Of a DNA stretch of 64,000 bases, positions 28,542-44,125 are shown one piece after another; position 1 is the stretch's first letter, and every line of letters begins with the position of its first letter. A program made the position numbers and the translations under genes. The notes beneath the pieces are model-generated. The model was not told where the DNA came from and did not search any database. It saw only the letters and a list, made by a program, of their open reading frames with translations. Source of the stretch: Phycisphaeraceae bacterium. Its GTDB lineage: Bacteria > Planctomycetota > Phycisphaerae > Phycisphaerales > Phycisphaeraceae. Location: positions 1 to 64,000 of the forward strand of contig PBAS01000052.1 in assembly GCA_002716625.1 (NCBI GenBank). Reading direction: 5' to 3'.

Positions 28542-29165
28542 TTATTCCGGTAGGAGCTTTGCCATGGCTTCATGTGGTCGGGCAATCACATGTGCAGCCA
28601 CAAGCGTGCCAACTTTTTCGACTGCGGCCTGTCCGGCATCTAGTGCGGCAGTTACCGCCGCCACATCACCTCGCACCATCACGGTGACGTGTGCTGCTCC
28701 GATTTTCTCCTTGCCGACCAATTCGACGTTTGCCGCTTTGAGCATTGCATCAGCGCCTTCGATAACGCCAGTCAGTCCCTTGGTTTCCAATAGTCCCAAT
28801 GCTTGCATTGTATTTCCTTTCGTTTCCCCATCATCACGAGGTCGCATGTGGAGATAGCCCTGTGATATTGGGCTATATTCCTGCGGGCTATTGATCATGG
28901 GTACGTTTTCGTTATCTTCGTAATGCAGCAGGAGTGTAGCTGTACATTCTGCATGCATATGACTTGAAATCTGCCTTGCAATTTCAACTGCACGCTGGCA
29001 ATGTGCCGCATCACCAACCATCTTTACCACGCATCGTTCGCCTGCATCTCCTTCGATGTCGATGATCTTCACCTGTGCACCTTTAATCGCTTGATCTGCG
29101 ATTACAAGTGCTGGCGACAAGCCGACCACATCGATCATGGCAAGGTTGTATCTGGTTCGTGTCAT
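28542..29165 (-). CDS. Tandem BMC-domain shell protein (BMC-T type)
   Basis: A 207-residue protein with two BMC (Pfam 00936-like) domains. The first, residues 8-95, is divergent ([20 protein letters not shown]). The second, residues 120-207, is a canonical one ([20 protein letters not shown], ending [17 protein letters not shown]). Tandem-domain proteins form trimeric pseudohexamers in microcompartment shells. The pore loop of the second domain reads KIGAAHVT rather than the GSG/GGG of the three BMC-H proteins at 38.6-40.8 kb. An in-frame ATG with its own ribosome site precedes the second domain. It lies in a transcription unit with the DHDPS-like aldolase and RraA-like genes. Confidence 0.88.
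28806..28820 (-). promoter_or_regulatory. Internal ribosome site and start codon inside the BMC-T gene
   Basis: On the minus strand AAAGGA (28820-28815) lies 6 bases before an in-frame ATG (28808-28806). Initiation here would give an 88-residue protein that is exactly one complete BMC-H domain. The layout recalls PduB/PduB', where an internal start yields a second shell product. Confidence 0.55.
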
Positions 29166-29323: not shown

Positions 29324-30340
29324 TTAGGCTAATTTTCCCCCCCCAAAACGCTCCACCACCTGTGATACGATTGCTTGGATCGTCTGGTCATCGACCTGTG
29401 ATATTCCACAACCACCAGGTGGTTCGCTGACTAGGCCATGTTCGGCAATCAGGCATTGAATGGTTCTTGTGAGGCGATCAATGTCCAACTGTGACCTGGC
29501 TGACTGGTGTTGACGTCCGCGACCCATATCGAATCCTCGGACGGTCATGCCAGAACGAAAACCTTCGGGGAAATCAACGCCATTTAGCATGGCCTCGATC
29601 AAATCAAGCATCTGGTACTGAATCTTGATTGCTTCGTCATGGTGTCCGGCGCGATAAAGGTTGTAGAGTTTCATAACCACTTCGGGTACGACGCCGGACG
29701 TGGCAATCGTGCCACCATCCCCCCCCATCATCAACGTGGGAAGCAGGATTTCCTCACAACCGACCAGGAATGAGAAATCCGACCGTTTAGGGCGGATCCG
29801 GTTAATCGTTGCCAGAAACCTAGGCATGTCCCGAGAAGAGTCTTTGATGCCGATAATCCTAGGATGCTGGCAAAGTTGTTCAATCGTATCAATGGAAATT
29901 TCGTTGGAGAATTGTGGGATATTGTAGAGCACGATATCTATCTGCGCACGGTTAGCGACTTCCTCGAAATAGGTGCGCACATTTTCTTGACTCATTTTGT
30001 AATAGTGTGGTGCAATAAGTGCTCCGGCACGGCAACCCAGATCAGCGTAGTAGTTTAATGCATCCAGGGTAACTTCAATGTTGGCCTCATAGGCACCGGC
30101 TAGCACAGGTACATCACGACCGGCACGACTCGCCTGTTCTTGAACAATTTCAATGATCCGTCGCCGTTCGGTGTGGGTCATTCGGGTGAACTCACCAGTT
30201 GAGCCGTTCGGGTAGATGCCGGTGATGCCCCGTTCGATCAGAAAGTCGATGATTCTTCGAAGCTCTGATTCATTGAGTCGGTCCTGGTGGTCTAAGGGGA
30301 TGACATGCGGGCAGAAGATTCCTTCAATCTTATGACTCAT
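29324..30340 (-). CDS. DHDPS/KDG-family class I aldolase with encapsulation-peptide-like tail
   Basis: A 338-residue TIM-barrel Schiff-base aldolase/lyase of the DapA/NanA/KDG aldolase family. Active-site landmarks are PNGSTGEF (about 43-50), the tyrosine in VLYNIPQFSNE, and the Schiff-base lysine in IIGIKDSSRD. It probably splits or forms a 2-keto-3-deoxy sugar acid with pyruvate as one product; DHDPS itself is less likely from context. The family core ends near residue 300. A Gly/Pro-rich linker (EPPGGCG) and an amphipathic helix VDDQTIQAIVSQVVERF follow, like the peptides that target cargo to microcompartments. It lies between the RraA-like gene and the BMC-T gene. Confidence 0.85.
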   Translation of the reverse strand: MSHKIEGIFCPHVIPLDHQDRLNESELRRIIDFLIERGITGIYPNGSTGEFTRMTHTERRRIIEIVQEQASRAGRDVPVLAGAYEANIEVTLDALNYYADLGCRAGALIAPHYYKMSQENVRTYFEEVANRAQIDIVLYNIPQFSNEISIDTIEQLCQHPRIIGIKDSSRDMPRFLATINRIRPKRSDFSFLVGCEEILLPTLMMGGDGGTIATSGVVPEVVMKLYNLYRAGHHDEAIKIQYQMLDLIEAMLNGVDFPEGFRSGMTVRGFDMGRGRQHQSARSQLDIDRLTRTIQCLIAEHGLVSEPPGGCGISQVDDQTIQAIVSQVVERFGGGKLA

Positions 30341-30427: not shown

Positions 30428-31174
30428 TCAACGTTTTAGCCGGTAACGCACGGCCAAGTTATTCATCTGTCGCTTGGACTCTTCCATCGCCTGGCGATAC
30501 CCCGATGGTGTGCATGAGCCCTGCTTGAGGTAGTTCAATACTGAACCTTCAGCTGCCACCAAGCCTGCCGCCGCTTCAGCTACTTCCGATGCGATCTCGT
30601 TAGGGATGGTGGTAATACCATTTCGGTCACCATGAAGCAGGTCACCGGGCCGGACGGTCATGCCACCTACACGCACGGCGACATCAATAGCACGAATCTG
30701 GGTATAGGCATGAGCGCAAAGTGTTGACCCGATGAATGCAGGGAATTTGAGTGCCTCCACCTGATCCAGATCGCGCCCACCACCTGATGTGACAATCCCA
30801 ACCGCGCCAAAGGCCTGGTAGGTAGCGCACATCACTTCGCCAAAGGTTGCGGCTACGGGGGGATCATCAAGATCCTGAAACACCATTACAGGGGGGGCTT
30901 GGAGCTGTGCGAGGGTTTCAATTTGTTCATTTAGCCGATCGTAGGTTGAGGGGCCGTCAGCCGGTGCGTCTGAACCAAACGTTGCTGTTGTTGCGTAACC
31001 CACCATCGGTGGGAAATGCTCAAAGCAACATTGGATACGCTGATCCATGTATCCAGCATTGCGTGGCCGTACATCAAACAGCTCAATGGCATTGCAAATC
31101 GTTGGCGTGTCATATTTCGCCAGTTCTGCAAGTTGCTGCTGTGATAGAACCCTATTTGGTGTGCCAATAGACAT
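30428..31174 (-). CDS. RraA-like / HMG-aldolase family protein
   Basis: A 248-residue protein of the RraA/4-hydroxy-4-methyl-2-oxoglutarate aldolase family. Key residues are in VTSGGGRDLDQVE (substrate Arg and metal Asp, about 125-137), and HGDRNGITTIPNEIA corresponds to the family's D-x-D-G-V-V-V-P region. Members cleave 4-hydroxy-2-keto acids to pyruvate or decarboxylate oxaloacetate, with a divalent metal. The start ATG 31174 has a GGAG ribosome site; an in-frame start at 31198 is possible. It heads the unit with the DHDPS-like aldolase and BMC-T genes, so a role in keto-sugar-acid breakdown is likely. Confidence 0.83.
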   Translation of the reverse strand: MSIGTPNRVLSQQQLAELAKYDTPTICNAIELFDVRPRNAGYMDQRIQCCFEHFPPMVGYATTATFGSDAPADGPSTYDRLNEQIETLAQLQAPPVMVFQDLDDPPVAATFGEVMCATYQAFGAVGIVTSGGGRDLDQVEALKFPAFIGSTLCAHAYTQIRAIDVAVRVGGMTVRPGDLLHGDRNGITTIPNEIASEVAEAAAGLVAAEGSVLNYLKQGSCTPSGYRQAMEESKRQMNNLAVRYRLKR

Positions 31175-31311
31175 ATTTTTATCTCCATTTAAAATCAACG
31201 GTTAATATCATGGGGTTTGACCCGTGGTATACCATGCACTGTTTGTTAACTGTCCTGTGTTTATGATTCAAGTGATTCATCCTTGGATTAATTCGCCTTC
31301 CTTCGACATCC

Positions 31312-32421: not shown

Positions 32422-33186
32422 CTATTGCGCGTAGGGTTCTGCCACGCGTATCTGTGTATCTAAACGCTGTTTCCAGTCTAGGCCAACGTGTGCATCCGTA
32501 ATGATCTGGTCAACTTCATTTAACCCGCACACCCGCACCAGGCTTTTGCGGCCAAACTTGGTGGAGTCCATTAAAAGGATATTTTTGGCAGCTTGGCGCA
32601 TCATGACCTGCTCGACCTGTGTCATGGGTAGATTGATGTTGTATGCCTCTTGGTCGTAAATTCCAGCTAGGCTAAACAGCAGCAGGTCTGCGTGTAAATC
32701 TGCCAGACAACCGGTGGCAATTGCACCAACGGTTGTTCCGGTTCTTGGATACAGGTCGCCGCCAATCATGACGAGTTCGACCTTGTCATCTTCAACAAAG
32801 TGGCTGGCAATAAGCAAGCTGTTGGTGACAACTTGGATCGGTCTTGCGATGACCTGTTGTGCTGTGTAGACGACTGTTGACCCTCCATCCATGAGTACGG
32901 TCATATGGGGTTGAACCAATTGTGCAGCCACGGATGCGATGGCCTGTTTTTGTTCAATCTGTTCATTCATGCGGCCGGCTTCGTCAACATTTGGTTCATC
33001 AACCGATTCTCGGTAGATGGCACCAGCTCGTGTGCGGTCAACCTTTCCGCGTGATTCCAGGTGCTCCAGGTCGCGCCGGATCGTTGATGAACTGACATCC
33101 AGTTCCTGGGCTAATTCCTCAAGCTGGACCGTTTTTCTCATCTTGAGAATATTCAATACGCGTTGTTGACGTTCGACAATAAGCAT
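32422..33186 (-). CDS. DeoR-family transcriptional regulator
   Basis: A 254-residue DeoR-type repressor. The N-terminal winged helix is VQLEELAQELDVSSSTIRRD (about 20-39), followed by HLESRGKVDRTRAGA. The sugar-phosphate-binding DeoRC domain includes VLMDGGSTVVYTAQQV and a late MDSTKFGRKSL. Start ATG 33186 is preferred to an upstream start at 33222, which would overlap the neighbouring gene. These regulators sense phosphorylated sugars. Placed at the 3' end of the BMC operon, it probably controls the BMC genes in response to a sugar phosphate such as fuculose- or rhamnulose-phosphate; its operator was not identified. Confidence 0.9.
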   Translation of the reverse strand: MLIVERQQRVLNILKMRKTVQLEELAQELDVSSSTIRRDLEHLESRGKVDRTRAGAIYRESVDEPNVDEAGRMNEQIEQKQAIASVAAQLVQPHMTVLMDGGSTVVYTAQQVIARPIQVVTNSLLIASHFVEDDKVELVMIGGDLYPRTGTTVGAIATGCLADLHADLLLFSLAGIYDQEAYNINLPMTQVEQVMMRQAAKNILLMDSTKFGRKSLVRVCGLNEVDQIITDAHVGLDWKQRLDTQIRVAEPYAQ

Positions 33187-33193
33187 TGGTCTG

Positions 33194-34378
33194 TTATCCA
33201 AGGACACGCTGCCAGCGGTCAAGGCTCCATTTCACTTTTTCATTTTGGGGGATTTTCTCAACAGTCGGATCCCGGGTGGGGGTCGTCGACGCGTTAGTTG
33301 TTGTTGGGCTTGCCGTCGTGTTTCCATAAGCTGCAAGGCGACGTGTACTTATCAGGTCATCCTCGATGGATCGATATGGCTGGACGCCGTTGTTCTGTAG
33401 TGCGGCGTGATAGGATCGGACCGCTTCTTCCGGGTTATTGAGGTCACCGTCGGCCAGCCATCGCAGATGTTGAATGAAACTGGCTTGGTGTTCACTATTG
33501 TTGATCATTCGACCATATAAGGCCGCACGCGCGCCATGTTTTTTGGCTTCCCACAATTGGAAAAATGCATCAAAGGTCGTACCTGACGAACCACCCAGAA
33601 TGCCCGGAATCAGTGTCCGATCATAGCTAGCCAGTTGCTCCATCGCCTCCGGGCCGTGATATGGAATCTTTAGGAAGATGGGCTTTCCCTTGCCGACCAC
33701 GCCGGCCAGCGTTCGGGCAATTTGATCATTGATAAACCGTCCAAGGTCTTCTGGGCAGTAATTACCACAGGCATTAGGATTGAACACTTCTAGGAAATGG
33801 CGAAATCCCTTGGTTTCAGCTTCGATCCGAAATGTGCCATAGGCTTCCAGGGTTTCCAGGTCGCGCTCAATATCATTATTAAAGGTTACTGAATAGAGTC
33901 CTAGGTCTGCACCAAGTACGCGTTGTGCGGGGTTGCAGTCGGCATGGCCACACATGATGTGGTCAATGGTTGCAGTTCGAAATGGGCGGCTGGGTTCATG
34001 TGCATAATTGCTACCGGTGGCCAGATGAATGTCGGTCGTATCATTGACGCGAGCAGCTGGTGTGGTTGACGACTGATCGAATATCCGTTCCTTGACCGTC
34101 AGTAATTCATTTGTCGAAGCACTGGTTAGCATGATGTCGAGCAGACCCTGTTGGACATTTTCGCGAACCAGTTGCCGGTATTCCTGCAGCGAACGGAACC
34201 GCCCTTCCTGTGCGTGATGCTCTGGCGACTGCCCTGGGGCGGCAATTCCAAATGCCATGTCAGCGTCCTTGGCGTCTGCAATAATGAAATCACCGCATGT
34301 TGGATCAGCGAGTATTCGAGCCAGTTTGGTGTCGAGAGATTTTTGCATGCCGTGTATCGATTCCGGTCCTAGTTGCAT
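33194..34378 (-). CDS. TIM-barrel aldolase-like protein of the BMC operon
   Basis: A 394-residue protein that looks like a class I (DhnA/LacD/DeoC-type) TIM-barrel aldolase. Visible segments are DFIIADAKDADMAFGIA near the N-terminus, PIFLKIPYHGPEAM with a lysine on a predicted strand (about 255), and LIPGILGGSSGTTFDAFF. These are followed by ARAALYGRMINNSE, a typical phosphate-binding barrel end. A Thr/Pro-rich linker (residues 360-375) and a basic tail end the protein. It sits between the class II aldolase and the DeoR gene in the BMC operon. The exact reaction is unknown; a sugar-phosphate or keto-sugar aldolase is my best guess. Confidence 0.6.
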   Translation of the reverse strand: MQLGPESIHGMQKSLDTKLARILADPTCGDFIIADAKDADMAFGIAAPGQSPEHHAQEGRFRSLQEYRQLVRENVQQGLLDIMLTSASTNELLTVKERIFDQSSTTPAARVNDTTDIHLATGSNYAHEPSRPFRTATIDHIMCGHADCNPAQRVLGADLGLYSVTFNNDIERDLETLEAYGTFRIEAETKGFRHFLEVFNPNACGNYCPEDLGRFINDQIARTLAGVVGKGKPIFLKIPYHGPEAMEQLASYDRTLIPGILGGSSGTTFDAFFQLWEAKKHGARAALYGRMINNSEHQASFIQHLRWLADGDLNNPEEAVRSYHAALQNNGVQPYRSIEDDLISTRRLAAYGNTTASPTTTNASTTPTRDPTVEKIPQNEKVKWSLDRWQRVLG

Positions 34379-34394
34379 GTTTCCAGTGCTATTA

Positions 34395-35300
34395 TCACCC
34401 TATTTTCGCCATGATTTGGTCAGTGATTGCCTGCACGATTGGAGTTAATGCATCGTCTGTAACATCCGTCGGTCTTGTTTGGTTTATTGCTGGCGGTGGC
34501 GTCTGGTGGGTTATTGTGTGCCCGCCGTTACATTGACAGGTTGCGGTGGTCGGTCGCACATCGAATGTCGCTAGAAAATCTTGGTTGTCCGATGTGATGC
34601 AACCCTGTGGTGCGCACATGAGACGATCATCTTCAAAGCCAAATTTCTTTTTGACTTCCAGCAGTTCGGTTACCTGTGCAACATCAAGTACGTTTGTTTT
34701 CCCCAATTGCTGGCACAGGATCAAAATCCGGCAATAGTTATCCAAGATCTCCAGCCTGTAGTAGGCATCTATCAGGTCTGTTGAAAAGCTGACGGATCCA
34801 TGATTGCCCAGAAGAACTGTATTGGTCTGGTCTCCAATCAGGGGAATAATGCTGTCGGGTAGTGCCTGTGTTGAGGGCATGGCAAACTTTGCGGTTGGTA
34901 CTTTCCCTAGAAATATTTCAGCTTCAGGGTGAATGCCCTGTGGTAACGCCACATCGGCAACGGCAAAGGCGGTGGCATGTGGTGGATGGCTGTGTATCAC
35001 AGCCCGCACATCGGGTCGATGCTTGTAAATTGCTAAATGCACCAGGACCTCGCTGGTTGGTCTTTGCTGATTTTGGTTTAATTCAATCTGTTGGCCTTCA
35101 AGGTTGATGATGCAGATGTCATCAGGTTCAAGAAACCCCTTGCTTATCCCCGTGGGGGTACATAACACCCGGTCTTGTCCAATACGGACAGAATGATTGC
35201 CTTCATTGCCAGCGCAATACCCACGTCGCCATATGCGACGGCCCACTTCGCACATTTGCTCCTTAAGTTTTTCGATCGATATGTCCATCTCTGTTCTCAT
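34395..35300 (-). CDS. Class II aldolase (fuculose/rhamnulose-phosphate type) with C-terminal targeting tail
   Basis: A 301-residue zinc aldolase of the class II aldolase/adducin family. The zinc histidines lie in AVIHSHPPHATAF (about 92-104), the catalytic glutamate in HPEAEIFLG and another His in LLGNHGSVSF. The start ATG 35300 overlaps the preceding BMC-P stop (ATGA). L-fuculose-1-phosphate or L-rhamnulose-1-phosphate would give DHAP plus L-lactaldehyde, as established for PVM-type microcompartments. After the core, a Pro/Thr-rich linker leads to DDALTPIVQAITDQIMAKIG (about 282-301), an amphipathic helix typical of encapsulation peptides. This is probably a signature cargo enzyme. Confidence 0.9.
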   Translation of the reverse strand: MRTEMDISIEKLKEQMCEVGRRIWRRGYCAGNEGNHSVRIGQDRVLCTPTGISKGFLEPDDICIINLEGQQIELNQNQQRPTSEVLVHLAIYKHRPDVRAVIHSHPPHATAFAVADVALPQGIHPEAEIFLGKVPTAKFAMPSTQALPDSIIPLIGDQTNTVLLGNHGSVSFSTDLIDAYYRLEILDNYCRILILCQQLGKTNVLDVAQVTELLEVKKKFGFEDDRLMCAPQGCITSDNQDFLATFDVRPTTATCQCNGGHTITHQTPPPAINQTRPTDVTDDALTPIVQAITDQIMAKIG

Positions 35301-35608
35301 GAATTTGTTACCGTAATTTCGTCCAATATCGCCGAGCAATAGGCATCAATTGCTACCGGCTGGGGCTTAAACGGCATGCTTGCCTCGCCACCTTCGCTGA
35401 CCGCAACAATATGCCCAAGGCCGGCACCGAGCTGATCGAAAATAATTAATGATTCAGGCATTGGATGCGAACGCGGCGTCTGCTCACCAAGGTTAGATAG
35501 TGCCGTATGATCCAAGGTTTCTGCCAACAGAAACCGGCCCGGTTTGAGATGTGTAACCATCCGGTTCATCGTTACGGTTCCAATGATTCGAGCAATTCTC
35601 ATAAACAT
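35297..35608 (-). CDS. BMC-P pentameric vertex shell protein (EutN/CcmL family)
   Basis: A 103-residue EutN/CcmL-type protein: MRIARIIGTVTMNRMV at the N-terminus, then FDQLGAGLGHIVAVSEG and the C-terminal AAIDAYC/SAILDEI-like ending (here VAIDAYCSAILDEITV). Pentamers cap the icosahedral vertices of microcompartments. The stop overlaps the class II aldolase start, while the unknown protein gene ends 4 bp upstream. Two initiation codons (35608, 35602) are close together. Confidence 0.92.
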   Translation of the reverse strand: MFMRIARIIGTVTMNRMVTHLKPGRFLLAETLDHTALSNLGEQTPRSHPMPESLIIFDQLGAGLGHIVAVSEGGEASMPFKPQPVAIDAYCSAILDEITVTNS

Positions 35609-35612
35609 CCCA

Positions 35613-36473
35613 TCAGCAACGATGCAAGTCAGCTAATTCCCGTTGTACCAGTGGCGGCACTGTCGGGACCGACAGTAACATTCGATCCACCATCACCGCC
35701 ATCGACCGTGGAGTGATATGAGGGTATTCGAGGACCAGTACGTTTGCCCCCAGTTCCGTGATTCCCTGCTCAACCGCTTCTTCGCACGTGCCGATCACAG
35801 CGCGGATTGACTGGCAGCGGTTGACCATGCACATGATCCTCGCTGCATTTTCAACGAACAGGAATCCACCGGTTACCTGGCCGGTACCGATGGTAAGGGC
35901 CAAGTCACGCACGACCTGGCTTAAGGGAGTGGTACGACCACTACCACCCAGTGGTCGCAGGTATGATGTCCTTTGCTGGGCAACTTGGTTCACGGCATTG
36001 CAATGGCCACCTAGCCACCAGGCCCATGGACGAACTTGACCGCCACCTTGGGTTGTGAGTGGTGCTGTGGCGCTGCCGCGGCTGACCTTTTCGGGGTTCT
36101 TGCGGGCGAAGTCACTGGCTAATGGGGTGAGTCTGGCGTCACCAGCAATCACGGCCACTGCATCCGGTGAGGCATTAATCGCTTCCTGTAGCTGGTTGGC
36201 CGTTATGATGCCGTTTAATGGGATAGGGGTGGGTAAAGGTGTAATGGGCTGTGATTGCAAGCCTGGGGAGTCCGGCATGGCATCAGCTTGCCCACCTAGA
36301 CCGCCACGCAGTTCTGGAAACTTGGAATAATCACCGGTGCATGTGCCGATTGGCGCGTGAATTGCTGCTGTTCGATCATCTATGGATGGCGTATCGATCA
36401 GGCCGCGATCAGCCAGGATCTTGATCACCTCTTGGGTTATGCGCTGGATCAGTTGTTCGCGTTGCGTATCCAT
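35613..36473 (-). CDS. BMC-associated protein of unknown function with N-terminal targeting helix
   Basis: A 286-residue protein I cannot assign to an enzyme family. Residues 3-25 (TQREQLIQRITQEVIKILAD, then RGL) form an amphipathic helix like N-terminal encapsulation peptides. A variable Pro-rich linker follows, with the motif GTCTGDYSKFPEL. The C-terminal domain (about 105-286) has alternating strands and helices: NGIITANQLQEAI, AVAVIAGDARLTPLASD, and a Cys-containing MCMVNRCQSIRAVIGTCEEAV. It lies between two BMC-P genes in the core of the operon, 4 bp from the next one, and so probably has a structural or catalytic role inside the shell. Confidence 0.75.
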   Translation of the reverse strand: MDTQREQLIQRITQEVIKILADRGLIDTPSIDDRTAAIHAPIGTCTGDYSKFPELRGGLGGQADAMPDSPGLQSQPITPLPTPIPLNGIITANQLQEAINASPDAVAVIAGDARLTPLASDFARKNPEKVSRGSATAPLTTQGGGQVRPWAWWLGGHCNAVNQVAQQRTSYLRPLGGSGRTTPLSQVVRDLALTIGTGQVTGGFLFVENAARIMCMVNRCQSIRAVIGTCEEAVEQGITELGANVLVLEYPHITPRSMAVMVDRMLLSVPTVPPLVQRELADLHRC

Positions 36474-36495: not shown

Positions 36496-36753
36496 CTATT
36501 CATCCACAATTCCCAGGGTCCACCATCGAACCGGGCTGTTGTTATCATCAAGCAACTTCCGCAGTCCCTGCCCGTCACTGGTCAAAATCACTCGATCACC
36601 AAGTCCGGCGCCGAGTTGGTCGACCGCCAATACCGGATCACCTGACGGAGTATCGGCTACCCCCAATATCTGGCAGATGAGCAATTTTGCACCCGTGAGG
36701 GATGGGTGCTTGATCGTACTTGTTGCTCGTCCCTTAACCATGGCCAACTGCAT
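36496..36753 (-). CDS. BMC-P pentameric vertex shell protein (EutN/CcmL family)
   Basis: An 85-residue EutN/CcmL protein with MQLAMVKGRATSTIKHPS, LLICQILGVADTPSG, VDQLGAGLGDRVILTSDG and the final TLGIVDE, the canonical pentamer pattern. ATG 36753 has an AGGAAGG ribosome site 6-8 bases upstream; an ATG at 36768 would add five residues. It is one of three different BMC-P proteins in this locus, consistent with PVM-type microcompartments. Confidence 0.93.
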   Translation of the reverse strand: MQLAMVKGRATSTIKHPSLTGAKLLICQILGVADTPSGDPVLAVDQLGAGLGDRVILTSDGQGLRKLLDDNNSPVRWWTLGIVDE

Positions 36754-36793
36754 GCTCGCCTTCCTCATAGTGTGAGGTTTTTTAGGATTTCAA

Positions 36794-38233
36794 TTACACA
36801 ATACGGAGCGCCCCGCTCACGCTCATCCGGCGGAAACGTGTGAACGTTAATGGGTTGGTCACGCCTTCACCGGTTGGTGTGGCGATCGAATAACTTGCAT
36901 ACCCTTCACCACCAATACCCAGGCATGCCGTGGATGGACCATTAGCCACGAACAAGGTTGTGTTGCAGGCCCGCCCCATCCGCGTAATGTGGTCCAGGTC
37001 GTTCGAGTGAATAATCGTGGTATGTCCAAATCCATGTTCGTATTTAATGGCCAGGTCCATGGCTTGTTCAAAGTTGGACACACGAACAAATGGTACGAAC
37101 GGCATCATTTGTTCTTCACTGACAAAGGGGCTGGATTCGTCCGTCTCACCAAAAACAATGTCGACACCAACCGAAACATTTGCTCCGCACAGTTGCCCCA
37201 GTATGTGTGCGTCTGCGCCCACGTGTTCCTTCTTGACGGCGTAATGGTCCTGCTCAAAGGTAAAGACCTCCTGGGCCAGCTTTTCTATTTCCTGGTGTCC
37301 CAACTCAACTGCACCGGCGCGACGCATGGCGTCCATCATCTTGTCAAAGACCGATGCCACCACAAAAACTTCTTTTTCCCCAATACATAACAAATTGTTG
37401 TCAAAGCCCGCACCGCTGATGATTGATCGAGCCGCATTATCAAAGTCGGCCGTTTCATCAACTACGACTGGTGGATTACCCGGCCCGGCAACGATTGCAC
37501 GCTTGGCCTGTTTCATGGCGGCTCGTGCAACAGCGGGGCCCCCGGTAGCAACCAGGAGAGGGATGCCCGCATGTCGAAAGATCTCTTCGGCACTTCGCAG
37601 GGTTGGCGGATCAATGACGCAAATTAGGGGATCGATGTTGAATTCTGTCTTGATGGCCTTGTTGTACTCTGCGGCTGCCATTGCGGCGCACTTGGCTCCG
37701 GATGGATGTGGATTCACAACCATTGAATTTCCAGCTGCAAGCATGTTGATCGCATTGGAGGTTAAGGTTGGAATAGAGTGGGTGACGGGTGTAATCACTC
37801 CCAGCACTCCCCATGGTGCAGCTTCATCCAGGCTGATCCCCGCGTCACCGCTATGGGCGGCGCTTCGCAAAAACTCAACACCAGCCACACCACTGAGCAT
37901 CTCCAGCTTGGCAATTTTGTGATCCAACCTGCCGATCTTCGTCTCTTCAAATTCAATACGCCCCCAATCCTGGGCGTTTTCTTTTGCCATTTGTTTTAGT
38001 AAACAGCAGATCCCATCACGCACCTCGAGACTTGCCGTGGCGAGTTGCCGCTGCGATACGGTAGCCTGGTTGACCGCGGCATCCACATCGCCAAATAGGC
38101 CGAGACCGTCAGCGGTCTGTTGTAGTGGTGCAGTTGGCGCGCCGGGCATCACCGTCTGGGTCCCGTCAGCCCCTGGTGCCAGTTGCTTGAGAACTTCCTC
38201 AACCACACTTCCTATGAGTTGTTCCTGGTTCAT
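36794..38233 (-). CDS. CoA-acylating aldehyde dehydrogenase (PduP/EutE-like), BMC cargo
   Basis: A 479-residue CoA-dependent aldehyde dehydrogenase. Residues 1-18 (MNQEQLIGSVVEEVLKQL) form an encapsulation peptide helix, followed by a linker. The catalytic cysteine is in GFDNNLLCIGEKEVFV (about 268), and ATGGPAVARAAMKQAKRAIV and GPGNPPVVVDETAD surround the nucleotide site. It oxidises an aldehyde to acyl-CoA with NAD+; in this context lactaldehyde to lactoyl-CoA, or glyceraldehyde or propionaldehyde. ATG 38233 is chosen, with ATG 38245 the alternative. NADH and CoA are presumably recycled within the shell via PduL and a dehydrogenase. Confidence 0.93.
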   Translation of the reverse strand: MNQEQLIGSVVEEVLKQLAPGADGTQTVMPGAPTAPLQQTADGLGLFGDVDAAVNQATVSQRQLATASLEVRDGICCLLKQMAKENAQDWGRIEFEETKIGRLDHKIAKLEMLSGVAGVEFLRSAAHSGDAGISLDEAAPWGVLGVITPVTHSIPTLTSNAINMLAAGNSMVVNPHPSGAKCAAMAAAEYNKAIKTEFNIDPLICVIDPPTLRSAEEIFRHAGIPLLVATGGPAVARAAMKQAKRAIVAGPGNPPVVVDETADFDNAARSIISGAGFDNNLLCIGEKEVFVVASVFDKMMDAMRRAGAVELGHQEIEKLAQEVFTFEQDHYAVKKEHVGADAHILGQLCGANVSVGVDIVFGETDESSPFVSEEQMMPFVPFVRVSNFEQAMDLAIKYEHGFGHTTIIHSNDLDHITRMGRACNTTLFVANGPSTACLGIGGEGYASYSIATPTGEGVTNPLTFTRFRRMSVSGALRIV

Positions 38234-38275
38234 AACCCGTTCCATCCTGGCATTGCGTTGTGCGCAAATATTGAA

Positions 38276-38605
38276 CTAGTTGATTCGTTGGCCGTGTACA
38301 ATCGCCTCATCCACGATGCCGACGACTGCCGCGTCGACCGGTGTTTTGTTGAAACCTTCTGCCATACGTGCACTGGACCCTTGAACGATCAGCACAAGTT
38401 GACCCTCTCCTGCGCCGATTGAATCGAGCGCGACGATTGCCCGTCCGGTGACTTCGAAACGTCCGCCACCCTTATTGGTACTGCCGGCGGTTGTGGGTTG
38501 GTCATAATCCACTTTAAGTGGCTCAACGATCAGGAACTTTTGTCCCTGGACCGCCGGGTCCTTTGCGGTGGCTACAACATGTCCCTTTACACGCGCAAGA
38601 AACAT
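38276..38605 (-). CDS. BMC-P pentameric vertex shell protein (EutN/CcmL family)
   Basis: A 109-residue EutN/CcmL protein: MFLARVKGHVVATAKDP, QKFLIVEPLKVDY, a Gly-rich insertion (GSTNKGGGRFEV), then IVALDSIGAGEGQLVLIVQG and AAVVGIVDEAIV. AGGAG lies ahead of ATG 38605. The insertion makes it longer than the 85-residue paralogue at 36.5 kb. It lies between the BMC-H and aldehyde dehydrogenase genes. Confidence 0.93.
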   Translation of the reverse strand: MFLARVKGHVVATAKDPAVQGQKFLIVEPLKVDYDQPTTAGSTNKGGGRFEVTGRAIVALDSIGAGEGQLVLIVQGSSARMAEGFNKTPVDAAVVGIVDEAIVHGQRIN

Positions 38606-38633: not shown

Positions 38634-38897
38634 TCAGACCCGTGTCACATCATCATGTGGTCGGGCAATAACGTGTACGCTAACGACTTCGCCAACGCGG
38701 CGTGCCGCTTCGGCGCCAGCGTCGACACCGGCCTTGACGGCAGCTACATCACCTTCAATGGTGATCGAAATTAGCCCGCTTCCGACCTTGTCCTGTCGCA
38801 CATATTTGACGTTTGCGGCTTTGAGGGCAGCGTCCAGCGCCTCAATTGCGCCGATCATTCCACGTGTTTCTACCATTCCGATTGCCTGCTGTGCCAT
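38634..38897 (-). CDS. BMC-H hexameric shell protein
   Basis: An 87-residue single BMC-domain protein starting MAQQAIGMVETRGMIGAIEA at ATG 38897, with GAGGAG upstream. The frame is open to 38942, but that start lacks a ribosome site. The pore loop is KVGSGLIS, and the C-terminal HVIARPHDDVTRV is standard. Hexamers tile the shell facets and their pores pass small substrates. It follows acetate kinase and precedes a BMC-P gene. Confidence 0.95.
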   Translation of the reverse strand: MAQQAIGMVETRGMIGAIEALDAALKAANVKYVRQDKVGSGLISITIEGDVAAVKAGVDAGAEAARRVGEVVSVHVIARPHDDVTRV

Positions 38898-38956
38898 GTT
38901 GTTAACTCCTCGTGGCGATGTTGTCGTAACCACTTGCTGCATAGCCGATGGCTCGG

Positions 38957-40159
38957 TTATGCAGCCTGTTTACTAAGGACTTGCACGGTTTGCCGCGCAA
39001 CAATGAGTTCCTCATTGGTTGGGATAATCCAGACTGCGACCTTCCCACTGTGAATTTGTGATTCCTGGTTCCCGGTACCGGTTGGGGTGGTCATGTTCTT
39101 ATCAGGGTCAATTTCAATGCCGGCAAAGTCGAGGTTCTTGCAGATTGCAGTGCGGATGTCGCGTCCGTTTTCTCCAATGCCGCCCGTGAAAACAAGAGCA
39201 TCGACACCATTTAGAATTGCCAGATAAGCGCCGATGTAATGCTTAACCGATTCAACGAAAGCATCCACGGCAAGCTTTGCCCGTTCATTGCCAGCGTGGG
39301 CTGCTTGCTCCACTTCTCGCATGTCGGCACTGACCCCTGAAAGTCCCTTCAGGCCCCCTTCCTTGCCCAGTTGTTGCCAGATGGTGTCAAGATCAAATCC
39401 AGACTTGAGCAATTGCAAAATGGCAAAGGCATCAAAATCCCCAACCCGTGATGCGTGTAGGACGCCAGTCTGGGCCGTCATTCCAAAGCTGTTGGCGACA
39501 CTTTGCCGGTCTTGAATCGCACAGATGGAACATGAGCCACCTAGATGGCAACTGATTACCCGCTTGGCCTCCGGGGCAATCTGCGCCATGCGGGTGGCAA
39601 TATAACAATGGCTGGCACCATGGAAACCGTAGCGTCGCATGCCATGATCTTCAATCCATGCAGCCGGGATGCCATAAACCTGGCGTGCCATCGGTATCGT
39701 CTGGTGGAACGCGGTCTCAAAGGCTGCAACCTGGGGAATACCCGGGAGCCGCTCCATGAATGCCCGCATGGCATCGATGTAAGGCGGGTTGTGTTGTGGG
39801 GCGACTTCAGCAAACTGGGTCATCACTTCAAGCACCTGATCGTCCACTTGAATTGGTTTACTGATTGGGCCGCCATGCACCGCTTTAAAGCCAATTGCCT
39901 CAACATCGGTCATTGCCGTGATTGCCTTGGATTGAACCAATTCATGTAAATGTAGATCAATCGCTTCGCCATGGTCTTCCAGGTCCACTTCACCGTTGCG
40001 GGTATATTCCTCGGCGGTGACCGACCATGTACTTCGTCCTTGGCCGATACGATCAGCATCGCCCTGTGCAAGAACAGTTTCAGTGGTGCCTGCGCGGTCG
40101 ATATCAAACAGCTTATATTTAAAGCTGGTTGAACCGAGGTTGGCCACCAGGACAATCAT
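38957..40159 (-). CDS. ackA: Acetate/propionate kinase-like enzyme
   Basis: A 400-residue acetokinase-family enzyme. Landmarks are VLVANLGSTSFKYKLFD at the N-terminus, AVHGGPISKP, FHQTIP, YGFHGASHCYIA, ISCHLGGSCSICAI and VFTGGIGENGRDIR. It makes ATP and a carboxylate from an acyl phosphate, the step after PduL. ATG 40159 begins the conserved sequence; the frame is open to 40324. There is no obvious targeting peptide, so it may act on the cytosolic side or enter by piggyback. It is embedded between BMC-H genes. Confidence 0.94.
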   Translation of the reverse strand: MIVLVANLGSTSFKYKLFDIDRAGTTETVLAQGDADRIGQGRSTWSVTAEEYTRNGEVDLEDHGEAIDLHLHELVQSKAITAMTDVEAIGFKAVHGGPISKPIQVDDQVLEVMTQFAEVAPQHNPPYIDAMRAFMERLPGIPQVAAFETAFHQTIPMARQVYGIPAAWIEDHGMRRYGFHGASHCYIATRMAQIAPEAKRVISCHLGGSCSICAIQDRQSVANSFGMTAQTGVLHASRVGDFDAFAILQLLKSGFDLDTIWQQLGKEGGLKGLSGVSADMREVEQAAHAGNERAKLAVDAFVESVKHYIGAYLAILNGVDALVFTGGIGENGRDIRTAICKNLDFAGIEIDPDKNMTTPTGTGNQESQIHSGKVAVWIIPTNEELIVARQTVQVLSKQAA

Positions 40160-40193
40160 GTTTGGTCCGCCTGCAAGGATTCTGTTATGGAAC

Positions 40194-40457
40194 TTAAAAC
40201 GTGTCCAGCAATTGGTCGTGTGGACGCGCAATGACATGTGCGGAAACAAGTTCGCCAACTCGACCAACTGCTTCAGCACCGGCGTCGACGGCTGCTTTAA
40301 CCGAACCAACGTCACCCTTGACAACCACGGTGATTAAACCACCACCGATGGGAACTGACTGGACCAATTCGACGTTTGCTGCTTTGAGCATCGCGTCAGT
40401 GGCCTCGACGATGCCAGTGTGGCCTCGCGTCTCTATCATGCCTACTGCACTACTCAT
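40194..40457 (-). CDS. BMC-H hexameric shell protein
   Basis: An 87-residue BMC-domain protein: MSSAVGMIETRGHTGIVEA, pore loop PIGGGLITVV, and C-terminal [22 protein letters not shown] precedes ATG 40457. It differs from its neighbours mainly at the pore (GGG versus GSG) and helix 2, suggesting different permeability. It is one of three stand-alone BMC-H genes in the locus. Confidence 0.95.
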   Translation of the reverse strand: MSSAVGMIETRGHTGIVEATDAMLKAANVELVQSVPIGGGLITVVVKGDVGSVKAAVDAGAEAVGRVGELVSAHVIARPHDQLLDTF

Positions 40458-40522: not shown

Positions 40523-40822
40523 TTACTTCGAGATCTTGCTTTTATTTTTGGGCATGGGCATCATCGCCGCTAACTCCTCATGTGGTCTTGGGATGATGTG
40601 CACCCCGACGAGTTCCCCGACCTTGCTGGCCGCACCAGCTCCGGCATCAACTGCTGCCTTGACCGCGGCGACATCGCCGCAGACAAAGCCGGTGACCATG
40701 CCGCTTCCGACCTTGTCCCAACCTATCATCTCGACATTCGCTGCTTTCAGCATTGCATCACTCGCTTCAATCAGCGCGATCAGACCCTTGGTTTCTACCA
40801 TTCCCAACGCTTCTTGTGCCAT
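40523..40822 (-). CDS. BMC-H hexameric shell protein with extended tail
   Basis: A 99-residue BMC-domain protein: [20 protein letters not shown], pore loop [10 protein letters not shown], and [22 protein letters not shown] at the end. The Lys-rich C-terminal tail is about 12 residues longer than in the other two BMC-H proteins. AGGAG lies before ATG 40822. It is the second gene of the operon after pduL. Confidence 0.95.
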
Positions 40823-40872: not shown

Positions 40873-41571
40873 TCACGATGCCTTGATCAGTTCCATACGC
40901 GTGGCCGTTGACAGGTCGCACGCGTTACCTTCATCCGTATCAATGTGCACTTCCAGCTTGACACGCGGGTGTTCACGAACCTGCATGTCATCAAACGTTA
41001 TTCCGCATGGGCCTTCAATTTTCAATTTCATTAAATCGCCATCGGCCACGCCATAATGGGCCAAGTCTGCGGAATGCATGTGGACATGGCGCTTGGCGCG
41101 AATCACGCCCTGTTTTAGCGTGACTGCCCCATGCGGCCCCACAAGAATACAGCCAGGCGTGTTTTCATGATTCCCGCTGATTCGTAGCGGCAGATCAATT
41201 CCCAAAAACACACCATCGGTATACGACAGTTCAACCTGCGTGTAGTCGCGGGTGGGTCCAAGGATTCGCGTGCCAGGAATCATGCGATTGCGGGGTCCCA
41301 CGATGTTGACCTGTTGTTCAGAAGCAAACTCACCATCCTGGTAAAGGTCTCGTAGTTTGGTGAGTTGGGCGCCAGGCCCGAAAAGTTGAAGCAGGTCGTC
41401 TTGGCACAGGTGGATATGCCGCGCTGAGATATTCACAACCAGCGGGTTGGGTCCCTCGTGATCGCCCGCGCGGGTTTGACCATCACGCCGCTGTGCGAGG
41501 CGGCTGTGTAGAGCGTGGCGTACCAGTTGTTCAACGCGCGCCCGGTCAATGCCGTTGGTTGTCGTGATCAC
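40873..41571 (-). CDS. pduL: PduL-type phosphate acyltransferase, BMC cargo
   Basis: A roughly 232-residue PduL enzyme that converts acyl-CoA plus phosphate to acyl phosphate and CoA, recycling CoA inside the shell. Two PduL half-domains each carry zinc histidines: VNISARHIHLCQDDL (about 55) and RAKRHVHMHSADLAHYGV (about 165). An N-terminal helix, DRARVEQLVRHALHSRL, resembles an encapsulation peptide. GTG 41571 is chosen because GGAG lies 6 bases upstream; TTG 41583 is the longest alternative. It is the first gene of the main BMC operon. Confidence 0.92.
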   Translation of the reverse strand: MITTTNGIDRARVEQLVRHALHSRLAQRRDGQTRAGDHEGPNPLVVNISARHIHLCQDDLLQLFGPGAQLTKLRDLYQDGEFASEQQVNIVGPRNRMIPGTRILGPTRDYTQVELSYTDGVFLGIDLPLRISGNHENTPGCILVGPHGAVTLKQGVIRAKRHVHMHSADLAHYGVADGDLMKLKIEGPCGITFDDMQVREHPRVKLEVHIDTDEGNACDLSTATRMELIKAS

Positions 41572-41587
41572 GGCGAACTCCAAATGA

Positions 41588-41968: not shown

Positions 41969-42913
41969 CTAATTCGTGCGGGTTGTTGCCGCTTCGATTA
42001 ATCCCCGCATGTAACCCACTGCAAATAATCGCCCAAGCATCGTATACCCGGGATTCTCATCTGCAGATTCACCTTCTAAAACGGGGACATGATCAGGACG
42101 CATCACGCCCTTGTATCCGATGGCAGCATATGCTTTCATCGCCGCTAACATGTTGGTTTTACCATTGTCATGGAACGTCTCTTGGAACTTGGGCATGGTT
42201 CCCTCGACGTCCCTGAAGTGGACATAGTGGATGCGGTCAGCAAAATGATGAATGGCATCAACGATTGGCTCGCCAATTTGAGAAAAACTCCCCTGGCAGA
42301 AACACATGCCATTTGCACTGCTCTTGCTTAGATCAAACAAGCGTTCGTAAGCCTGCGGGCTGGTAATGATTCGCGCCTGGCCCCTTAGCTTTGCAACTTG
42401 TGGGTCATCAGGATGCAGTGCGAGTTTTACCCCCACTTCCTCGGCGACGGGCAAGACGCGGCGTAGGAAATATTCCAGGTTATCCCACATTTGATCTTCC
42501 TCGATAGGGCCACCGGGGCCAATTGACTGATGGTCATCCAGGTCCAGGTCGTAGCTGCTAACCAGAGCTCCGCCACGGCCATGTGTCTTGAATGATGTGC
42601 GTGACCAGTCATCATCGGGCATGAAGTTATAACAACAGATCGATATGCCGAGATGCCCCATATCCTGCAAGAGACTGATGAATCCCGCTATCTGCTCATC
42701 TCGCTGTGGCGTGCCATGGACAATATGGTTATGGGGAATATAGCCTTCGACAACGGTCAACTTCAATCCGGCGGCATCAACCCGGATCTTAATCTGCTCC
42801 AGCGTTTGGCCGTAATGGCCTGGAAATCTGCAGACGATGTCGGTGACTCCGACTTGTGCCGCCAAACGCAGATTCGCATCACTAAGGGGGGTGAGTACGG
42901 TTGCAATGCGCAT
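41969..42913 (-). CDS. Mannonate dehydratase-like (UxuA family) enzyme
   Basis: A 314-residue protein of the UxuA/xylose-isomerase-like family. Diagnostic segments are LALHPDDPQVAKLRGQARI (about 175-193), MCFCQGSFSQIGEP, YVHFRDVEGTMPKFQETFHD and the C-terminal MRPDHVPVLEGES with GRLFAVGYMRGLI. UxuA removes water from D-mannonate to give 2-keto-3-deoxy-D-gluconate. A related sugar-acid dehydratase is also possible. ATG 42913 is favoured over starts at 43027 and 42937. Its product type is exactly what the DHDPS-like aldolase at 29.3 kb would cleave, linking it to the BMC genes downstream on the same strand. Confidence 0.83.
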   Translation of the reverse strand: MRIATVLTPLSDANLRLAAQVGVTDIVCRFPGHYGQTLEQIKIRVDAAGLKLTVVEGYIPHNHIVHGTPQRDEQIAGFISLLQDMGHLGISICCYNFMPDDDWSRTSFKTHGRGGALVSSYDLDLDDHQSIGPGGPIEEDQMWDNLEYFLRRVLPVAEEVGVKLALHPDDPQVAKLRGQARIITSPQAYERLFDLSKSSANGMCFCQGSFSQIGEPIVDAIHHFADRIHYVHFRDVEGTMPKFQETFHDNGKTNMLAAMKAYAAIGYKGVMRPDHVPVLEGESADENPGYTMLGRLFAVGYMRGLIEAATTRTN

Positions 42914-43060
42914 TTTTTTTTCCAAGAATACCCTCATGAGGGTAATGGGTTTCTTCGCTTCCTGCCAATCTTTACTTAATGATGTATTGTTAACCGCCAC
43001 TGTACTTTGTTGACTGTGTTTGTGCATTATAGTTCAAAGCCAGCAAGGAGGTTATGGGTC

Positions 43061-44125
43061 ATGTTAACCATGCATGCAGATCATTTGAGGAAGATAAGTA
43101 CATCAATATTTGTTGCCGCTGGTGTGAATGAGGAGAAGGCCGGGCAGGTGAGTCAGATCATCGTGGATAATTGTCTGTACGGTCACGATAGTCATGGCAT
43201 GGCTTGTGTGCCACGTTTTGTTGAGGATGTTGAAACGGGAAAGATCCACCCAGATGCCAAACCAACTGTAGTGCGTAATGGACCAGGCGCCGCGATCGTA
43301 GATGGCCATCGCGGTTTTGGTCAATTAACCATGGAGCATTCGATGCAGTTGGCAATACAGATCGCTTCGCAGCAGGCGATTGGTGCCGTAGCGGTAATGA
43401 ACTGCAATCACATTGGAATGCTCTGGAGCTATGCAAAAACAGCGGCTGAAAATGGGATGGTCTCATTTATATGGTGCGTCTGTGGTCCAGATGGTGGTGG
43501 TGGCGTGATGGCACCATATGGAGGCGCCAAGACTGCCATTGGCGCAAATCCCATTGCGGTGGGGATCCCTGCCGGGCAATGTCCCCCCTTTGTCCTGGAT
43601 ATTGCAACATCTGTCGTGTCCAGTGGCAAGGTCTTATGGCATGGCCAGCAGAACAAGCCGATCCCGGAAGGCTGGATTATTGATCAGCACGGTAATCCCA
43701 CCACCGATCCAATGGAATTATTTGGCCAGGGCATCCGGAAGATTGCTGGTGCATTGTTGCCGATGGGTGGTCACAAGGGTTTTGCGCTGGGGTTGGCATC
43801 GGAAATTATTGGTGGTGTGTTGACCCGATACGGTACAGGTAATCAGTCCGCTTTCCGAGAGGGTAATGGCAGCATGATCATTACGATCAACGTAGAAAGC
43901 TTCATCCCCCTTTCCCTGTTTGTCGATCAGGTTGACCAACTGCTTCGGTATATCAAGGCGATACCCACGGATCAAAACACTGACGAGATATTTATTCCTG
44001 GCGAACTGGAACTACGCACCTATGCGGATCGTGAAAAGAATGGAATTCCCGTCACGGAAGGTTTATGGGGGCAATTACAGGAAGTCGCAAAGAAATACTC
44101 AGTGGGAATCGATATGTCTGGCTAA
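43061..44125 (+). CDS. Malate/L-lactate dehydrogenase (Ldh2) family oxidoreductase
   Basis: A 354-residue NAD(P)-dependent 2-hydroxyacid dehydrogenase of the Ldh2 family. Visible landmarks are GHDSHGMACVPRFV (about 35-48), VMNCNHIGMLWSYA, APYGGAKTAIGANPIAVGIP, the LDIATSVVSSGK segment and LLPMGGHKGFALGLA. It interconverts a 2-keto acid and a 2-hydroxy acid, such as pyruvate/lactate or a diketo sugar acid. AAGGAGG sits 9 bases before ATG 43061. The gene diverges from the uxuA-like gene, sharing about 150 bp of promoter DNA, and could balance NADH from BMC metabolism. Confidence 0.88.
   Translation: MLTMHADHLRKISTSIFVAAGVNEEKAGQVSQIIVDNCLYGHDSHGMACVPRFVEDVETGKIHPDAKPTVVRNGPGAAIVDGHRGFGQLTMEHSMQLAIQIASQQAIGAVAVMNCNHIGMLWSYAKTAAENGMVSFIWCVCGPDGGGGVMAPYGGAKTAIGANPIAVGIPAGQCPPFVLDIATSVVSSGKVLWHGQQNKPIPEGWIIDQHGNPTTDPMELFGQGIRKIAGALLPMGGHKGFALGLASEIIGGVLTRYGTGNQSAFREGNGSMIITINVESFIPLSLFVDQVDQLLRYIKAIPTDQNTDEIFIPGELELRTYADREKNGIPVTEGLWGQLQEVAKKYSVGIDMSG

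Follow-up and report, generated by a model that had tools for sequence, protein, structure and literature searches.

The stretch of DNA analysed here (64,000 nucleotides from a Phycisphaeraceae bacterium, hereafter the window) raises the question of why an aldolase of the DHDPS/NAL superfamily, encoded beside a bacterial microcompartment (BMC) locus, should end in an additional helix, and what it might cleave. The gene, the parts of its product and its two neighbours are as follows.

29324..30340, minus strand: tailed aldolase gene, 338 aa from an ATG start, a PF00701 class I (Schiff-base) aldolase with a C-terminal tail
29441..30340, minus strand: catalytic domain, residues 1-300, a TIM barrel with C-terminal helices (AlphaFold2 model, Foldseek)
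29390..29440, minus strand: flexible Gly/Pro-rich linker, residues 301-317, of low pLDDT in the AlphaFold2 model
29345..29389, minus strand: amphipathic encapsulation-peptide-like (EP-like) helix DQTIQAIVSQVVERF, residues 318-332 (AlphaFold2, conservation, tail profile)
28542..29165, minus strand: tandem BMC-domain shell protein (BMC-T), PF00936 twice, the downstream partner of the aldolase
30428..31198, minus strand: RraA-like aldolase/decarboxylase family protein (PF03737), 87 bp upstream of the aldolase

In a profile search, PF00701 covered residues 5-274 of the aldolase at 6.4e-52 and scored 176.5 bits against a cut-off of 22.1, which places the product among the class I aldolases of the superfamily. 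The motifs NGSTGE, LYNIP and GIKDSS, on which the original prediction had relied, were all present, and the key residues, including the catalytic K166 and Y139, were invariant in a 12-sequence alignment. The AlphaFold2 model (pLDDT 76.9, pTM 0.79) showed a TIM barrel with its final canonical helix at residues 281-300; the top fold match found by Foldseek was YagE (2v8z, TM 0.90 by target), with further matches to structures of DHDPS, N-acetylneuraminate lyase (NAL) and KDG aldolase.

Among curated models, the aldolase remained below the dapA equivalog (133.5 bits against a cut-off of 206), both nanA equivalogs (123 bits for a cut-off of 382, and 149 bits for one of 281) and the archaeal KDG/KDPG aldolase model NF040954 of NCBIfam (92 against 390 bits). 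The genome encodes ten PF00701 proteins, and its true DapA was located at G000:C79:8256-9107. Both proteins share the PF00701 fold and the Schiff-base lysine, whereas DapA carries GTTGE and YNIPGRT where the tailed aldolase reads GSTGE and YNIPQFSN, without the Arg. The earlier suggestion of a pyruvate-producing sugar-acid aldolase, not a DHDPS, is supported, and we propose that the product is a 2-keto-3-deoxy-L-fuconate/rhamnonate aldolase.

Upstream of the aldolase, the same strand carries a complete PVM-type microcompartment locus, as judged by its BMC-H genes, BMC-P triplet, AldDH, PduL, acetate kinase, class II aldolase and DeoR. Its genes are listed below, and their order recurs in the main loci of related genomes.

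40873..41583, minus strand: PduL phosphotransacylase (PF06130, NF011652), with an N-terminal EP-like stretch at 41494-41544
40523..40822, minus strand: BMC-H shell protein (PF00936)
40194..40457, minus strand: BMC-H shell protein (PF00936)
38634..38942, minus strand: BMC-H shell protein (PF00936)
38957..40324, minus strand: acetate kinase-family acyl kinase (PF00871 from residue 58)
38276..38605, minus strand: BMC-P vertex protein (PF03319)
36496..36768, minus strand: BMC-P vertex protein (PF03319)
35297..35608, minus strand: BMC-P vertex protein (PF03319)
36794..38245, minus strand: CoA-acylating aldehyde dehydrogenase (AldDH, EutE/PduP type; 532 bits on NF011927 against a cut-off of 403), with an N-terminal EP-like helix at 38174-38224
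35613..36473, minus strand: ORF286, a conserved PVM protein with an N-terminal EP-like helix at 36408-36458
34395..35339, minus strand: class II aldolase (PVM signature enzyme, PF00596), with an EP-like C-terminal helix at 34407-34457
33194..34378, minus strand: ORF394, a conserved PVM gene, 57-65% identical in other main loci
32422..33222, minus strand: DeoR-family regulator of the PVM locus (PF00455, PF08220)

With the microcompartment of the Planctopirus limnophila type (Erbilgin 2014, cited in PMC4207490 and PMC8857213) this locus has in common the shell genes, AldDH, kinase, class II aldolase, DeoR and the lactaldehyde intermediate, and the window adds to them a class I pyruvate aldolase with an EP-like tail and a tandem BMC protein. 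The adjacency of the aldolase to a shell gene, also predicted originally, was borne out by this tandem gene (28542-29165, minus strand), which begins 158 bp beyond the aldolase gene on the same strand and whose product is matched best in the PDB by 6ner (1.1e-49), a BMC-H tandem fusion protein. The same arrangement, in which a tandem BMC gene follows the aldolase without a change of strand, was found in ten other genomes, in eight of them within 250 bp.

On its other side, the RraA-like gene (30428-31198, minus strand) forms an apparent operon with the tailed aldolase, and its true start is probably an internal ATG (MSIGTPNR). No RraA match was detected in 31 neighbourhoods of aldolase relatives; it was therefore rejected as a partner of the aldolase and, being absent beside the aldolase elsewhere, probably lies outside the conserved unit.

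The substrate was approached through the gene context of relatives, which is that of a fucose pathway in four lineages. In the window's own family group (L064), a GH29 alpha-L-fucosidase, an Ldh_2 protein, a GntR regulator, a fuconolactonase-family hydrolase (best model L-fucono-1,5-lactonase, at 258 bits under the 400 cut-off) and an SDR stand directly before the aldolase. In Akkermansiaceae (L012), the aldolase follows an SDR, an L-fuconate dehydratase matching solved L-fuconate dehydratases in the PDB at about 1e-101, a GH95 fucosidase-family protein, an SSF symporter and a RhaM-family mutarotase. The aldolase lies between an SSF symporter and a lactonase in Opitutales (L011), and within about 10 kb of a tandem BMC gene, a lactonase, a Zn-ADH and an aldo-keto reductase in L066 (genome G049). 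The L-2-keto-3-deoxyfuconate aldolase FucH was reportedly first described by Watanabe in 2020, and the FucH-type set of L-fucose dehydrogenase, lactonase and dehydratase is partially present in these same four loci but was not recovered in the window's genome. The enzyme of the window resembles FucH (PMC11199699) in the proposed reaction and in the lactonase, dehydratase, SDR and transporter of its relatives, and differs from it in being tailed and in belonging to BMC genomes; the likeness is one of proposed reaction and gene context.

The last step of route 1 of non-phosphorylating L-fucose metabolism is an aldolase reaction in which 2-keto-3-deoxy-L-fuconate yields pyruvate and L-lactaldehyde (PMC11199699). 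For the PVM compartment, too, the aldehyde has been inferred to be lactaldehyde (PMC4207490). The fucose genes of the relatives, the product of this route and the PVM aldehyde, taken together, lead us to propose a second lactaldehyde feed into the same compartment. Our preferred reading, to which we give a probability of about 0.62, is that the protein would be an encapsulated aldolase for 2-keto-3-deoxy-L-fuconate (and/or its L-rhamnonate epimer) and a cargo of the PVM. Among the substrates named by the original prediction, context favours these two sugar acids, and KDG, which that prediction named first, is the weaker candidate.

The possibility that the encapsulated enzyme is instead of the KDG type, cleaving uronate-derived KDG to pyruvate and D-glyceraldehyde that would be oxidised in the compartment, seems unlikely, even if the window offers a candidate source of KDG in the first of two genes found beside the BMC locus.

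41969-43027, minus strand: UxuA-like dehydratase, PF03786 mannonate-dehydratase-like, adjoining the BMC operon
43007-44125, plus strand: Ldh_2 dehydrogenase, beside the BMC locus

In favour of KDG are this dehydratase gene, the top fold match YagE, whose PDB annotation is that of a probable 2-keto-3-deoxy-galactonate aldolase, and the place among the top PDB relatives of the Picrophilus torridus KDG aldolase (4uxd), which shares with the window enzyme the fold and the motifs YNIPQF(T/S)N and KDSS. The identity to 4uxd is, however, 26% in a structural alignment of the catalytic domain only, where 4uxd has no counterpart of the tail, and the archaeal KDG aldolase model is far from reached, as given above. 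Furthermore, the sugar genes of the relatives are those of fucose and not of uronate, and in the relatives the UxuA-like gene does not accompany BMC genes consistently, being absent or unlinked in most genomes with a tailed aldolase, so that it was rejected as a pathway partner. As a separate observation, the UxuA-like and Ldh_2 genes lie on opposite strands with overlapping ORF ends.

Somewhat less probable again is an encapsulated superfamily aldolase acting on another 4-hydroxy-2-oxo acid that varies by lineage. No curated equivalog model was passed, and L-fuconate dehydratase is patchy among the carriers of the tailed aldolase, many of them having none. The window genome (88% complete) has no L-fuconate dehydratase of the L012 type and only a weak lactonase relative (27%), and in the genomes examined of family f32 (Pirellulaceae-type) the aldolase mostly lacks sugar genes as neighbours and is flanked instead by genes for a Na+/H+ antiporter and a sensor kinase. 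Because of the missing dehydratase and of these f32 neighbours, the substrate may vary by lineage, or enzymes of other families may carry out the missing steps. Against an unrelated substrate stand the fucose-pathway context in four lineages and the uniformity of the catalytic-domain motifs across the clade.

The preferred reading also places the enzyme inside the shell, as inferred from sequence. A Gly/Pro linker and an amphipathic helix past the usual C-terminus had been predicted originally, and in the AlphaFold2 model a low-confidence linker (residues 301-317) leads to a separate helix (318-332). An encapsulation peptide is defined as an amphipathic helix of 15-20 residues joined by a flexible linker to a terminus (PMC8217296), and the model, the conservation and the tail profile together place the aldolase tail within this definition. 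Linker and helix were kept in 51 of 52 extracted homologues from Planctomycetota, Verrucomicrobiota and Omnitrophota. The linker itself varies greatly in length and sequence; in 20 representatives, the helix motif is separated from residue 300 by 18 to 54 residues (an example of a helix is DVSQIVQRVVAELNRR), whereas motif positions 4, 7, 8, 11, 12 and 15 are hydrophobic and near-invariant in the same set and the exposed positions vary. The helix of the window aldolase is less amphipathic than most of its homologues' (shuffle p 0.09). With the tail kept in 51/52 homologues and six near-invariant hydrophobic positions, it is more than chance. The sole exception, L009 2119-3048 (plus strand), has a genuine stop ahead of the tail, and its genome still has three BMC domains.

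To compare the tail with other termini, a score matrix was built from aldolase tails only, excluding that of the window, and run on the termini of 20 BMC-region proteins of the window (19 besides the aldolase). ORF286 and the aldolase ranked first, followed by PduL, class II aldolase and AldDH, so that the four best of the 19 non-aldolase proteins were ORF286, PduL and AldDH, each by its N-terminus, and the class II aldolase by its C-terminus. The chance that four named proteins fill the top four of 19 is 1 in 3876, a figure whose list of expected cargo draws partly on general knowledge of BMC cargo. As the matrix derives from aldolase tails alone, the likeness to other cargo termini was not built in. 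In 12 further main PVM loci, the N-termini of AldDH and ORF286 scored positive with one exception, and those of PduL and the C-termini of class II aldolases gave mixed scores, from about -7 to +15. Most scores were well below zero for AckA, ORF394 and the shell proteins, and below zero for DeoR. The resemblance to the class II aldolase tail (DDALTPIVQAITDQIM, residues 295-310 of 34395-35339, minus strand) that had been noticed originally was thus recovered by this ranking. That fuculose/rhamnulose-phosphate aldolase shares with the tailed enzyme the EP-like C-terminal helix and, under the proposed reaction, the L-lactaldehyde product, but belongs to an unrelated family, takes a phosphorylated substrate and releases DHAP instead of pyruvate.

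The distribution of the gene was followed in two ways. An independent scan of the genome collection returned 11 relatives from Verrucomicrobiota and Omnitrophota, all 11 from genomes with BMC, and whole-genome searches added many further homologues in Planctomycetota. In that phylum, BMC domains were present in 38/38 genomes with a strong aldolase match compared to 127/392 overall (Fisher p 3e-21, an overstated value, as relatives are not independent), and the single BMC-less carrier among close relatives is a 51% complete genome. The gene is often distant from shell genes in Planctomycetota (0.5 Mb apart in genome G083), and nearly all genomes with a tailed gene have BMC shell genes, the unlinked cases included. 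Within f32, 140 genomes had both traits, 6 the aldolase only, 12 BMC only and 2 neither (Fisher p 0.15); both traits being near-universal there, the test is powerless and was dropped as support.

In a maximum-likelihood tree, the 26 sampled members of the BMC-linked group formed one clade with support 98/99, or 83/91 once the tails were removed, and none of 23 PF00701 paralogues, DapA included, had an EP-like terminus. Counted among these 23 are the nearest homologues outside the clade; they lack the tail, and the two genomes that encode them, both of genus g283, gave no BMC match. The untailed 301-aa homologues L121 6306-7208 and L122 6146-7048 (both minus strand) come from BMC-less genomes and share an antiporter/kinase/regulator neighbourhood with some tailed copies of the same family, a hint that they possibly represent natural loss of the tail together with the organelle. 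The untailed G399 and G483 copies have the synteny with antiporter, kinase and regulator genes, and AU tests did not reject their orthology with the copies of Pirellulaceae (p 0.10 and 0.21). The free tree nevertheless sets them outside the tailed clade, and the attempt to prove them to be orthologues with a lost tail failed.

As the tail is conserved, confined to the BMC-linked clade and similar to the termini of AldDH, PduL, ORF286 and class II aldolase, and as paralogues and the nearest untailed homologues, from BMC-less genomes, lack it, the original proposal of a tail targeting the protein to the microcompartment is strongly supported by sequence comparison. By the same evidence, it is improbable that the enzyme is cytosolic (a DHDPS, an NAL or another), with a tail that serves in oligomerisation or as a linker and has nothing to do with the compartment. 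Such a reading would agree with the frequent separation of the gene from shell genes in Planctomycetota and with the one homologue without a tail; it would have to explain why the tail follows the BMC-linked clade and looks like other cargo termini of the same loci, and why the two nearest untailed homologues come from BMC-less genomes. Against it also stand the DapA that the genome encodes elsewhere, its further paralogues without a tail, and the DapA and NAL models under cut-off. A synthetic role, in which the aldolase would serve as a detoxification valve by joining leaked lactaldehyde to pyruvate, is very improbable, since clustering with lactonase, dehydratase and transporter points to catabolic cleavage, even if class I pyruvate aldolases are reversible and the gene persists in genomes without a detected fuconate dehydratase.

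Under the preferred reading of an encapsulated methylpentose sugar-acid aldolase, linker and amphipathic helix would act as the encapsulation peptide of this class I pyruvate-dependent enzyme. A non-phosphorylating methylpentose pathway would supply 2-keto-3-deoxy-L-fuconate and/or its L-rhamnonate epimer, to be cleaved inside the PVM compartment to pyruvate and L-lactaldehyde. The latter would pool with the lactaldehyde of the class II fuculose/rhamnulose-phosphate aldolase and pass through encapsulated AldDH and PduL, then the kinase, to lactate and ATP. With less confidence, we infer that the adjoining tandem BMC protein may be an extra shell tile tuning permeability to the sugar acid.

The sequence data suggest that these organelles could receive a toxic aldehyde by a second, phosphate-free route. 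The idea that the aldolase takes PVM chemistry beyond fucose and rhamnose phosphates held in part, as the route leaves phosphates but, from gene context, probably stays with methylpentoses and the same L-lactaldehyde. A broader view, in which the PVM is a dual-input organelle with a conserved, often unlinked tailed-aldolase module, with or without a tandem BMC protein as sugar-acid gate, is tentative and falls a little short of an even chance. If true, one shell would take both phosphorylated and non-phosphorylated methylpentose routes, forming L-lactaldehyde together with DHAP or pyruvate.

A search of the accessible full texts returned no paper that connects DHDPS-family proteins to BMC cargo, and PF00701 goes unmentioned in the main texts of two BMC catalogues. 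Part of the link between pathway and microcompartment may already be known, because, according to PMC12263773, the non-phosphorylating fucose pathway was reported in sponge-associated Verrucomicrobia by a study titled on microcompartment-based sugar use. What appears to be new is a tailed class I aldolase as a proposed cargo of the PVM, widely conserved and often encoded apart from the shell operon. BMC types are catalogued from the genes that adjoin shell genes. Such catalogues would miss a tailed cargo enzyme whose gene usually lies at a distance from the shell operon, leaving the described PVM chemistry incomplete. The PVM type is among the commonest BMC types in the environment and matters for the turnover of algal fucose.

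Cofactor balance inside the compartment, for which two competing scenarios exist (PMC6620236), would likewise be affected by an input that yields pyruvate. In relatives L079, L085 and L087, an Ldh_1 gene (lactate/malate dehydrogenase, PF00056/PF02866, the predicted NAD+ recycler of PVM loci) lies between ORF394 and the class II aldolase, whereas the window has no lactate/malate dehydrogenase gene at that place (34378-34395, minus strand). The specificity position of the relatives' Ldh_1 proteins reads R (LRRKPDESR), as in malate dehydrogenases. With R at this position and the gene missing at the window site, pyruvate as a PVM Ldh_1 substrate closing a redox loop was left unsupported. A 2-hydroxyacid dehydrogenase beside L006, L068 and L069 was considered as an encapsulated NAD+ recycler and set aside, the L006 protein having no EP-like terminus by eye.

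Some minor features of the PVM locus were also recorded. The kinase ORF (38957-40324, minus strand) is too long at its start, and its true start is probably near MIVLVANLGSTSFKYKL. ORF394, with no match in Pfam or PDB, ends in a low-complexity linker and a Trp-containing stretch with the consensus DFSxMTxxEKIAWNxxRWxRVL in several relatives; this C-terminus, unlike a usual encapsulation peptide, is possibly a second kind of targeting tail. ORF286 gave no Pfam match and no significant PDB match, is conserved in position in related PVM loci at 39-50% identity, and has at its position in the f32 locus L087 a 230-aa protein with an ORF286-like N-terminus. It carries the strongest EP-like N-terminus of the window locus, and by its sequence is a probable unannotated cargo protein.
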